Origin: Rhizobium sp. WSM4643
GTDB lineage: Bacteria; Pseudomonadota; Alphaproteobacteria; Rhizobiales; Rhizobiaceae
Assembly (NCBI RefSeq): GCF_025152745.1
Contig: NZ_CP104040.1
Span: 124,001-188,000 of the forward strand
Direction: 5' to 3'
DNA: 64,000 bases
Shown here: positions 2,515 to 62,793 of the stretch, piece after piece
How positions within the stretch are numbered: the stretch's first letter is position 1
Layout of the letters: each line of letters starts with the position of its first letter
The notes under the pieces: generated by a model
Database searches by the model: none
Seen by the model: only the letters and a program-made list of their open reading frames with translations
What the model was told of the DNA's origin: nothing
Made by a program: the position numbers and the translations under genes

Positions 2515-2637
2515 GCACTTGACCGAGCCACGGGTCTCGACCCATCCTCCAGACCCCAAAGGGGTGAAGGGATATCCCGCAGCCTCTCGATTCCCTCTTC
2601 TCCCCAGCGGGGAGAAGGTGCCCGTAGGGCGGATGAG
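2515..2637. repeat. Left part of a RIME-like composite repeat, interrupted by the IS110 element
   Basis: It holds a hairpin of the form CTTCTCCCC-AGC-GGGGAGAAG followed by GTGCCCGTAGGGCGGATGAG, where the IS begins. The continuation of the repeat (GGGGCCGGCGAAGCCGG) resumes at 3810. The uninterrupted version of the same composite is at 17733-18035. The preceding stretch (about 2520-2560, GGGTCTCGACCC) belongs to another repeat module also seen at 8.3, 30.8 and 36.6 kb. Confidence 0.8.
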
Positions 2638-2652
2638 CATCTGTGTTTGGTG

Positions 2653-3606
2653 TCAAGGTGGATTTGGTGTCCAGATGCGGTTTTTGGTGATGAGGGTGTT
2701 TGCCAGGACGATGAGCTTTCTCATGACGGCGACGAGGACGACCTTATTGGGTTTTCCGACTTTCTTCAGCCTTGCGGCGAAGCGTGCGAGGTCCGGGTTG
2801 TGACGGGAGGCGGACAGGGCGGCCATGTAGATGGCGTTCCTGGGTGCTGGGCGTCCGCCCCTGATGGAGCGATGTCCGGCCCGCTCGCCACTTTCGCAGG
2901 CAATCGGCGCAAGGCCGGTCAGCATGGCGGCCTGCTTGCCGGAGCAGGCGCCAAGTTCGCAAAGGCCAGCGATCAGGCTTGCGGCGGTGACGGCTCCGAT
3001 GCCGGGAATGGAGATGAGGATGTCGAGGCGGCGGCGCATCTCGGGATCGGCGCAGATGCTGCGCTCGATCTCGGCGTCCAGTCTTGCGATATGGGTGTCG
3101 AGCGCGGCAAGCCGGCGCGTCAGTTCCTTGCGCAGGAAGGCGGTCACGGCCGTCTTCATCCGGTTGGACAGGGCGGTGCGTTCGCCATTGGCGGCAGATC
3201 GGGCATTGACCAGTTCCTGCAGGGCTTCCAGCGCTTGGTCCGGCGGTGGGGTCTGTGCGGGCTTGAGGGCTTCTCCCATGATGGCCAGAAACCGCGCATC
3301 GAGCCGATCGGTCTTGGCGAGAAAGCCGCAGGCTTTGGCAAACAGCCGGGCGCGCAGCGGGTCGACGACCGACACGTAAAAGCCATCGGCATGCAGCGAG
3401 CGCTGGACGGCGCGATGCCACTTGCCGGTCGCTTCCATGACGATACGCAGCGCCGAGCGCGGCATCTGGTCAAGCGCATCGAGCTCCCGCTTGAGGCGGC
3501 GCAGGCCGGCCGTGTCGTTGGTCACCCGAAAACTGCGGCCGAGAGGATGCAGATGAATGTCCAGCCACTCTTTACAGACATCGATGCCGACATAAACTGT
3601 CGCCAT
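2653..3606 (-). CDS. IS110-family (DEDD) transposase, copy 1
   Basis: A DEDD recombinase with a RuvC-like N-terminal domain and a C-terminal Transposase_20 domain carrying the catalytic serine region. Visible: YVGIDVCKEWLDIH (first Asp), EATGKWH (Glu), KTDRLDARFLA (DxxD), then the HhH-like ISIPGIGAVTAASLI and LTGLAPIACESG...HRSIRGGRPAPRNAIYMAALSAS. I chose the ATG at 3606 (MATVYVGID), which puts the first Asp at residue 9 as is usual. The frame stays open upstream to 3657 with possible starts GTG 3657 and ATG 3639, but that stretch overlaps the predicted donor-binding loop of the bridge RNA. No strong Shine-Dalgarno precedes 3606, so the start is less certain than the gene. The frame is intact and probably active. 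Confidence 0.93.
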   Translation of the reverse strand: MATVYVGIDVCKEWLDIHLHPLGRSFRVTNDTAGLRRLKRELDALDQMPRSALRIVMEATGKWHRAVQRSLHADGFYVSVVDPLRARLFAKACGFLAKTDRLDARFLAIMGEALKPAQTPPPDQALEALQELVNARSAANGERTALSNRMKTAVTAFLRKELTRRLAALDTHIARLDAEIERSICADPEMRRRLDILISIPGIGAVTAASLIAGLCELGACSGKQAAMLTGLAPIACESGERAGHRSIRGGRPAPRNAIYMAALSASRHNPDLARFAARLKKVGKPNKVVLVAVMRKLIVLANTLITKNRIWTPNPP

Positions 3607-3611
3607 CGCGG

Positions 3612-3806
3612 TGCGTTCGGACGATACCTTGCCTTGCATACGGGACCTGCTCCCCACTATCTGTTCAGGACAAACGCGAAGGACGGGCGGACCAGGCTCA
3701 TCCCCGGTTCACGCCAAGGGGGTTACGGTCCCGCCCGTCCGACCCCTGGGGGATGGCCATCCCCCAGGGGTCGCACCCATCATCAACGGATGCAGTTTGA
3801 ACATGC
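3612..3806 (-). ncRNA. Predicted bridge RNA of the IS110 element, copy 1
   Basis: Read on the minus strand, the non-coding 5' end of the IS folds by eye into three parts. (1) A hairpin from a perfect 34-bp palindrome at 3740-3773. (2) A stem pairing 3727-3740 with 3681-3693, enclosing a loop with CCCCCT (complement of 3717-3722) and GGATGAG (complement of 3697-3703); these match the left and right halves of the repeat target around the CT core, one in each strand sense. (3) A stem pairing 3671-3677 with 3613-3619 (one G-U), enclosing ACAGAT (3659-3664) and ATGCAAG (3633-3639), which match the right and left element ends. This is the target-loop/donor-loop layout known for the IS621 bridge RNA. 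The RNA ends are estimates. Confidence 0.8.
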
Positions 3807-3809
3807 AAG

Positions 3810-4055
3810 GGGGCCGGCGAAGCCGGTCTTTACGGGCTTCGACCGCGCTGGCATCGTCTCGACCGTGTTTAGGGCGCCTGCAGGATAGGATATGAGGTGA
3901 AGGATGTGCCGTGCGGCCCCCCTCATCCGCCTGCCGGCACCTTCTCCCCGAGGGGAGAAGAGCACATGCCGTGACCTCTCCGTTCCTCACTCGCCTCTCG
4001 CAGGGCACGTCCCCTCTCCCCGTCAGAACGGGGAGAGGGTTAGGGTGAGGGGCAA
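3810..4055. repeat. Right part of the interrupted RIME-like composite repeat
   Basis: It continues the repeat from 2637 across the IS: GGGGCCGGCGAAGCCGG, a variable middle containing CATCGTCTCGACCG, then the inverted end (GGCC-CCCC-TCATCCGCC at about 3915-3931) and a second CTTCTCCCC/GGGGAGAAG hairpin. The end at 4010-4055 (CCTCTCCCCGTCAGAACGGG) is another hairpin module also present at 19.2 kb. No gene lies in 3810-4065. Confidence 0.8.
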
Positions 4056-59303: not shown

Positions 59304-59318
59304 CATCTGTGTTTGGTG

Positions 59319-60272
59319 TCAAGGTGGATTTGGTGTCCAGATGCGGTTTTTGGTGATGAGGGTGTTTGCCAGGACGATGAGCTTTCTCATGACGGCGACG
59401 AGGACGACCTTATTGGGTTTTCCGACTTTCTTCAGCCTTGCGGCGAAGCGTGCGAGGTCCGGGTTGTGACGGGAGGCGGACAGGGCGGCCATGTAGATGG
59501 CGTTCCTGGGTGCTGGGCGTCCGCCCCTGATGGAGCGATGTCCGGCCCGCTCGCCACTTTCGCAGGCAATCGGCGCAAGACCGGTCAGCATGGCGGCCTG
59601 CTTGCCGGAGCAGGCGCCAAGTTCGCAAAGGCCAACGATCAGGCTTGCGGCGGTGACGGCTCCGATGCCGGGAATGGAGATGAGGATGTCGAGGCGGCGG
59701 CGCATCTCGGGATCGGCGCAGATGCTGCGCTCGATCTCGGCGTCCAGTCTTGCGATATGGGTGTCGAGCGCGGCAAGCCGGCGCGTCAGTTCCTTGCGCA
59801 GGAAGGCGGTCACGGCCGTCTTCATCCGGTTGGACAGGGCGGTGCGTTCACCATTGGCGGCAGATCGGGCATTGACCAGTTCCTGCAGGGTTTCCAGCGC
59901 TTGGTCCGGCGGTGGGGTCTGTGCGGGCTTGAGGGCTTCTCCCATGATGGCCAGAAACCGCGCATCGAGCCGATCGGTCTTGGCGAGAAAGCCGCAGGCT
60001 TTGGCAAACAGCCGGGCGCGCAGCGGGTCGACGACCGACACGTAAAAGCCATCGGCATGCAGCGAGCGCTGGACGGCGCGATGCCACTTGCCGGTCGCTT
60101 CCATGACGATACGCAGCGCCGAGCGCGGCATCTGGTCAAGCGCATCGAGCTCCCGCTTGAGGCGGCGCAGGCCGGCCGTGTCGTTGGTCACCCGAAAACT
60201 GCGGCCGAGAGGATGCAGATGAATGTCCAGCCACTCTTTACAGACATCGATGCCGACATAAACTGTCGCCAT
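59319..60272 (-). CDS. IS110-family (DEDD) transposase, copy 2
   Basis: Same protein as copy 1 except for two residues: Ala to Thr in ALETLQELVNARS and Ala to Val in AASLIVGLCELG. All DEDD and C-terminal motifs are intact. The start is taken at ATG 60272 for the same reasons as in copy 1, with alternatives at 60305 and 60323. Confidence 0.93.
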   Translation of the reverse strand: MATVYVGIDVCKEWLDIHLHPLGRSFRVTNDTAGLRRLKRELDALDQMPRSALRIVMEATGKWHRAVQRSLHADGFYVSVVDPLRARLFAKACGFLAKTDRLDARFLAIMGEALKPAQTPPPDQALETLQELVNARSAANGERTALSNRMKTAVTAFLRKELTRRLAALDTHIARLDAEIERSICADPEMRRRLDILISIPGIGAVTAASLIVGLCELGACSGKQAAMLTGLAPIACESGERAGHRSIRGGRPAPRNAIYMAALSASRHNPDLARFAARLKKVGKPNKVVLVAVMRKLIVLANTLITKNRIWTPNPP

Positions 60273-60277
60273 CGCGG

Positions 60278-60472
60278 TGCGTTCGGACGATACCTTGCCT
60301 TGCATACGGGACCTGCTCCCCACTATCTGTTCAGGACAAACGCGAAGGACGGGCGGACCAGGCTCATCCCCGGTTCACGCCAAGGGGGTTACGGTCCCGC
60401 CCGTCCGACCCCTGGGGGATGGCCATCCCCCAGGGGTCGCACCCATCATCAACGGATGCAGTTTGAACATGC
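60278..60472 (-). ncRNA. Predicted bridge RNA of the IS110 element, copy 2
   Basis: The segment is identical to that of copy 1: palindromic hairpin at 60406-60439, target loop with CCCCCT (60383-60388) and GGATGAG (60363-60369), donor loop with ACAGAT (60325-60330) and ATGCAAG (60299-60305). Both copies therefore address the same target. Confidence 0.8.
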
Positions 60473-60475
60473 AAG

Positions 60476-62616: not shown

Positions 62617-62647
62617 ACAAAAAAACCGGTCGCAAAAGCAGACCGGT
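62617..62647 (-). terminator. Leader terminator between the SAM-II riboswitch and metZ
   Basis: On the minus strand ACCGGTC, a TGCTTTTGC loop, GACCGGT and a run of T. The left arm can pair instead with GACCGGG (62654-62660) to form a competing hairpin at 62641-62660. Confidence 0.85.
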
Positions 62648-62656
62648 TTCAACCCG

Positions 62657-62715
62657 GTCTTTTTAGCCACTTGTTTAACGTGGCTGCAAGCCGACCGGCC
62701 AAATCACCACGGGAT
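62657..62715 (-). ncRNA. SAM-II riboswitch (metA motif)
   Basis: Minus-strand landmarks in order: CGTGGTGATTTGGCC, GGTCGGCTTGCAGCCACG, TTAAACAA, GTGGCTAAAAAG. These are the conserved blocks of the SAM-II pseudoknot, which binds S-adenosylmethionine. It lies 58-116 bp before the metZ start, the standard position in alphaproteobacteria, and is followed by a terminator. Confidence 0.95.
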
Positions 62716-62793
62716 AATTCTGCAATACTGCTGTTAGCTGCTTGCGTCAATTCCCCGAGTTTGGTTTTGTCGGCGGCAAATGATGGATGAGGC

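Follow-up and report, generated by a model that had tools for sequence, protein, structure and literature searches.

A Rhizobium IS110-group element very likely guided by a bridge RNA whose right donor guide likely carries the recombinase start codon

Bridge-RNA guidance has been known as a kind of mechanism since 2024. The papers cited below were available in part, and what is said of them refers to those parts. IS621 combines a DEDD/serine recombinase with a bridge RNA in the left end of the element, in which a left target guide (LTG), a right target guide (RTG), a left donor guide (LDG) and a right donor guide (RDG) follow one another in this order; it has a CT core, a REP target and a junction promoter, the last described in PMC11208160 (PMC11208160, PMC11208158). 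The element reported here resembles IS621 in each of these respects, its own bridge RNA and promoter being predicted ones. In the seekRNA systems ISEc11 and ISEc21, an RNA from the non-coding region of the IS selects the target, and natural reprogramming has been reported (PMC11187229). All four copies (4/4) of ISRm19, an IS110 family element of Sinorhizobium meliloti, are reported to lie in REP sequences (PMC1525189); we liken it to the present element by this reported location and not by its sequence. In ISPpu9, as here, the start region of the transposase is buried in RNA structure, but this has been attributed to regulation with two small RNAs, and an overlap with a guide is not described in the available part of that paper (PMC8450116). 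The closest named element among the matches listed is ISMno29 from Methylobacterium nodulans (53% protein identity), which shares both the RNA anatomy and the overlap of the RDG with an AUG.

Here, we analyse a window of 64,000 nucleotides from Rhizobium sp. WSM4643, meaning the whole stretch of DNA, to which all positions refer. It contains two copies of an IS110 element, the first of which is described by the following features.

2638-3809, minus strand: IS110 element, 1172 bp with one CT core counted, delimited by its junctions and copies
59304-60475, minus strand: second copy of the same IS110 element
3808-3809, minus strand: left CT core
2636-2637, minus strand: right CT core
2653-3639, minus strand: DEDD/serine recombinase frame, 328 amino acids from the AUG inside the RDG or 317 from a later ATG at 3606

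The right end is short, with 15 nt 3' of the stop codon, and the predicted RNA lies in the long left end. By this arrangement the element belongs to the IS110 group and not to IS1111, in which, as far as the available sources describe it, the RNA is usually found downstream of the gene. The protein is an IS110 family recombinase by its domains and residues: it contains PF01548 (DEDD) and PF02371, scores 201 bits against a cutoff of 140 with NCBIfam NF033542 (IS110 family RNA-guided transposase), and matches the solved IS621 recombinase with an E value of 5.5e-34 and 35% identity over 309 positions. Its residues D9, E58, D100, D103 and S239 are invariant in six aligned proteins and align with D11, E60, D102, D105 and S241 of IS621, the catalytic roles of which have been described (PMC11208158).

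The original prediction that this element is an RNA-guided recombinase of the IS621 type is supported by its copies, an empty site, the targets of its relatives, the IS110 domains and the IS621 alignment, and we consider bridge-RNA guidance of the element very likely. With high confidence, we propose the following course of events as a whole, in which excision, transcription, RNA binding and catalysis are modelled on IS621. The element would be excised as a circle, the joined ends of which would form a sigma70-like promoter, and this circle-junction promoter would transcribe the left end. The transcript would form a 5' stem-loop and two internal loops. One of these, the target-binding loop, would pair with CCCC-CT-CATCC, which ends an abundant rhizobial repeat, on both of its strands; the other, the donor-binding loop, would pair with ACAGATG-CT-TGCAT at the circle junction. 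Target and donor would then be joined at the CT core by the DEDD/serine recombinase, and the sharing of the RDG with the start codon would limit recombinase production.

The insertion sites can be read from the copies. Ten full-length copies with 99-100% identity are present in the own genome; the core CT is preceded by CCCC in 10/10, and the right flank after the core is CATCC in 7/10 and CATCT in 3/10. Other copies had been expected to sit where the guide loops point, and all ten lie at CCCC-CT-CATC[C/T] and none at an unrelated site. The second copy in the window has the same target as the first, CCCC-CT-CATCC. An empty orthologous site was sought for one copy, L007, with its joined flanks as the query against 60 genomes of the genus, the own genome included. 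Positions 1-240 of the joined flanks were matched uninterrupted at 88-91% in two of the 60 (G039 and G011), and a third full-span match was weaker (G023, 73%). The G039 site reads CCCC-CT-CATCC with a single CT, whereas the filled site carries CT at both ends; in G011, GGCCCC is absent from the alignment. For copy 1, positions 15-105 of the 105 of its joined flanks were matched by uninterrupted genomic repeats at up to 97%. Two further stretches of the own genome (L011 and L012) are about 65% identical to part of the element. The left end of L021, a copy of the element that is otherwise 99% identical, reads CTCGCATG in place of CTTGCATG.

The intact target 11-mer CCCCCTCATCC occurs at 69 sites in the own genome, compared with one for the reversed control, and bridge-RNA guidance offers an explanation of how the element finds these abundant repeats. 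Target 11-mers often occur in inverted pairs about 100-150 bp apart, both at window positions 3915-3960 and elsewhere in the own genome, from which the target looks like one end of a larger inverted-repeat element. It might be supposed that repeat structure or simple homology between element end and repeat drives insertion, the guide words being coincidence, and the right flanks of the ten own copies do resemble the repeat. Three other loci (L023, L136 and L162), however, carry CTCATCCC, and their right flanks are without the ACCTTCTCCCC of the repeat in the bases shown. Together with the shuffles and the relatives considered below, this makes such an explanation extremely improbable.

The left end is resolved into the parts of a bridge RNA and of a predicted junction promoter as follows.

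3604-3793, minus strand: predicted bridge RNA, both ends estimated from the positions of the junction promoter and of the outer stem of the donor loop
3773-3793, minus strand: additional 5' hairpin, predicted in the alignment of relatives
3741-3772, minus strand: 5' stem-loop of 14 bp, 12 of the 14 pairs changed on both sides
3681-3740, minus strand: target-binding loop with its closing stem
3717-3722, minus strand: LTG, CCCCCU
3697-3703, minus strand: RTG, GGAUGAG
3671-3677, minus strand: 5' strand of the outer donor-loop stem, GCGUUUG, pairing with 3613-3619
3659-3664, minus strand: LDG, ACAGAU
3642-3655, minus strand: inner hairpin of the donor loop, GGGGAGCAGGUCCC, including GGGGAG, which we read as Shine-Dalgarno-like
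3633-3639, minus strand: RDG, AUGCAAG
3613-3619, minus strand: 3' strand of the outer donor-loop stem, CGAACGC, which falls within the recombinase frame
3800-3805, minus strand: -10-like CATGTT; joining of the ends in the circle places it 17 bp from the -35
2651-2656, minus strand: -35-like TTGACA in the circle-junction promoter; the recombinase stop codon overlaps it

A 5' stem-loop and two stem-enclosed internal loops are present, as for a bridge RNA, the donor-loop stem having the least support. The parts, the junctions, the stem covariation and the guide-target concordance are direct readings of the sequence. The RNA had originally been placed at 3806-3612; its likely extent has shifted to about 3793-3604, and the extra predicted 5' hairpin distinguishes it from IS621. 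The earlier description of a folded, non-coding 5' part holds for the fold, which has a z-score of -4.34 with 0/200 shuffles equally stable, but not for the 3' part of the segment, which is probably not non-coding because the likely start codon of the recombinase lies within the RDG.

The two stem-enclosed loops contain the four guide words in the order originally given. The LTG is identical to the top strand on the left side of the target with the CT included, the RTG is the complement of CTCATCC, the LDG corresponds to the right end (AC)ACAGAT, and the RDG is the complement of CTTGCAT. On the donor side the RDG matches at 7/7 bases; the match of the LDG to the right end, as predicted, is confirmed for six donor bases but not for the core, where ACAGAU-AGU stands against ACAGAT-GCT, and the permutations described below covered the target guides only. 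The agreement of all four words had been held improbable by chance. When the 168-nt segment was dinucleotide-shuffled 200,000 times, with the words already known at the time of the test, no shuffle held all four; the single words (LTG, RTG, LDG and RDG) occurred in 40,061, 4,515, 3,034 and 772 shuffles, respectively. CCCCCT by itself is weak evidence, being contained in 20% of the shuffles; this frequency favours coincidence for that one word, and the four-word result argues against it for the set.

At gathering scores, Rfam gave no family in the left end, and a covariance model was therefore built from 18 left-end sequences. In their alignment (17 distinct), 18 of 42 pairs show changes on both sides and 95.4% of the cells are paired. 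None of 500 shuffles was as high on any of five covariation measures, a result that overstates significance because the sequences are related; likewise, the fold is favoured over slid controls because the structure was derived from the same alignment. For the outer donor-loop stem, 131/20,000 shuffles reached the level of the own pairings, so that this stem inside the frame appears moderately supported. The model scan took in 100 of 164 loci, and a further scan took in the window and 99 loci, of 194. At E<=0.01 the model matched 81/100 loci, leaving 19/100 without a match; 13 of the 81 are training sequences or near copies, outside of which 68/87 loci matched. Among 397 genomes of the order, 17 had a match, the own genome included. 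The bridge RNA of IS621 itself was found by the model weakly (9.6 bits, E 0.033) but at the correct place. Two loci, L120 and L174, each have two bridge-RNA matches on opposite strands about 180 bp apart, which suggests a pair of IS110 copies in divergent or convergent orientation.

A sigma70-like promoter is predicted across the joined right and left ends. In 44/44 distinct joined junctions, TTGA is present and a -10-like hexamer stands 17 bases after its hexamer, with three to five of the six consensus bases. Much of the -10 region and of the RDG is set by the donor-word patterns used to find the element ends; the TTGA, the frame and the target match are the only features independent of these patterns.

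Relatives of the element came from the best 80 of 159 loci of a genome-contig scan, plus genome, plasmid and model searches. The ends were located by the donor words only (left end, LDG, RDG and right end), and pattern detection led from 90 candidates through 84 rows and 56 unique insertions to 44 distinct target loops, 18 of type A and 26 of type B. Elements with other donor words (e.g. L172, L063, L065 and L181) stand outside the concordance count; also not among the rows are L021 and L080, missed by the patterns, and L149, L027, L032 and L161, which are degraded or incomplete. Over the 44 loops, the mean guide-target match was 6.25 of 8 on the left and 6.66 on the right, against 4.91 and 5.35 when shuffled, and 0/20,000 shuffles were as high for either guide; each score is that of the highest fit at any position within the loop region, and the shuffles leave relatedness in place. 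Type B alone gave 0/20,000 on both sides, and type A alone 5/20,000 on the left and 0/20,000 on the right. The own target ranked first or tied in 23/44 loops and strictly first in 11/44, in part because targets are shared among many relatives.

Individual relatives illustrate the correspondence. ISMno29 differs from the window element in its target, CTCCCT-CT-TTCCC, which is matched by its own LTG (8/8) and RTG (7/8). The target CATCTC-CT-CATTT of L085, from a Methylocystaceae MAG, is fitted at 7/8 by both guides. Besides these two, clear fits (left and right, of 8) are those of L094 (7, 7), L059 (7, 8) and L128 (7, 8). On one side, good fits of 8/8 were found for the right guide CTCTCCCG of L166, for the left guide TCTTGC-CT of L168 and for the left guide of L148. 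There are exceptions. The fit is poor (<=5 of 8) on both sides in L053 (5, 4) and L095 (5, 5), on the left in L070, L103, L106, L133, L162, L164 and L169, and on the right in L097, L127, L148 and L186. The best left fit lies away from the guide position in L084, L106, L162, L164 and L169; the left guide of L084 differs from its own target at three places, and the left end of L169 is duplicated in tandem (CTTGCATATTGGATAGG twice), making the left target ambiguous, with a left fit of 4 for the end used. With these exceptions, natural relatives with altered target loops have correspondingly altered targets, and the target loop covaries with the target across the clade, pairing with both target strands being predicted. 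That relatives with other targets mostly have matching guides again argues against coincidence. L172, an IS110 element of the same genus with a recombinase about 37% identical, has the word GGAUGAG in the target loop and is inserted at CTCATCC; it looks to be in the same kind of repeat, by shared or converged targeting.

The structured left end could instead be only a 5' untranslated region hiding the ribosome site, with the protein picking the target. A structured 5' UTR burying the ribosome site has been reported for ISPpu9 (PMC8450116), and the inner hairpin of the donor loop here covers GGGGAG and adjoins the AUG of the RDG. However, the guide words change together with the targets over the 44 distinct loops, and separate words match target and donor, which leaves this account very improbable; translation control may be a second function of the same RNA.

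Within the bridge-RNA interpretation, the AUG of the RDG AUGCAAG is likely the start codon of the recombinase. Among 23 distinct RNAs scoring above 100 bits, training members of the model included, 22 hold ATGCAAG at the RDG, the exception being L149 without the AUG, and 21 of these 22 open in frame into the catalytic G-x-D motif; L161 stops after 21 codons. This recount came from model matches, and the 18 distinct type A frames had been found with a pattern requiring [AG]TGCAAGG. In ten of the 18, no second ATG precedes the catalytic motif, and the deposited annotations of L160, L162, L163 and L164 begin at the RDG AUG. In L083, L085 and L168 the left end has drifted to CTTGTAT while the RDG is still AUGCAAG (a G-T wobble), as expected if the start codon holds the RDG.

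Alternatively, the bridge RNA is real but the AUG of its RDG is unused; translation would start at the later ATG (3606), and the upstream frame would be a by-product of RNA conservation. The window element does have this second in-frame ATG 11 codons on, and from the corresponding position 22/26 distinct type B frames fail to reach the catalytic motif. Against this, 7/18 distinct type A frames lack any further ATG, GTG or TTG ahead of the motif, five of them being full length (322-328 amino acids) and two broken (L026 and L052). We judge the later start unlikely, though less readily dismissed than a role for the left end as a leader alone.

In this respect the element departs from IS621. There, according to the available parts of the papers, pairing by the RDG is discontiguous (nine nucleotides over seven bases), whereas the RDG of the window element is contiguous and begins with AUG; the 177-nt bridge RNA of IS621 ends immediately before the annotated start codon, whereas here the AUG of the RDG opens the recombinase frame. 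By our own mapping, which uses L195 and the available part of PMC11208158, nucleotides 1-177 of the IS621 bridge RNA correspond to 306-482 of L195, and the annotated CDS runs from 483.

If the RDG is also the start codon, it would be difficult for a single transcript to fold as a bridge RNA while it is being translated. By analogy with ISPpu9, folding of the guide may hide the start region, so that guide and message would compete on one transcript. A broader proposal, plausible and still somewhat doubtful, is that bridge RNA and recombinase mRNA would form one interlocked molecule in this alphaproteobacterial clade: with the RDG as start codon and the closing stem of the donor loop in the first codons, a transcript would serve as either guide or message, which would limit transposition and fix the donor guide to a coding word while leaving the target guides free. 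If true, the overlap would give a transposon a simple means of playing guide off against message.

A literature search joining IS110, Rhizobium and bridge RNA found nothing, and no description of a guide/start-codon overlap was found in the available parts of the IS110 bridge-RNA literature searched. The overlap looks new within that literature; the data of PMC11208160 may already contain such cases because its pipeline takes in 50 bp of 5' coding sequence. With the present analysis, a system of genome-engineering interest gains a clade of bridge-RNA elements that are naturally reprogrammed and have recombinases of about 317-328 amino acids, together with paired sets of guides and targets for testing pairing rules. 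Elsewhere in the window, an alphaproteobacterial SAM riboswitch lies at 62642-62720 on the minus strand (82.7 bits).
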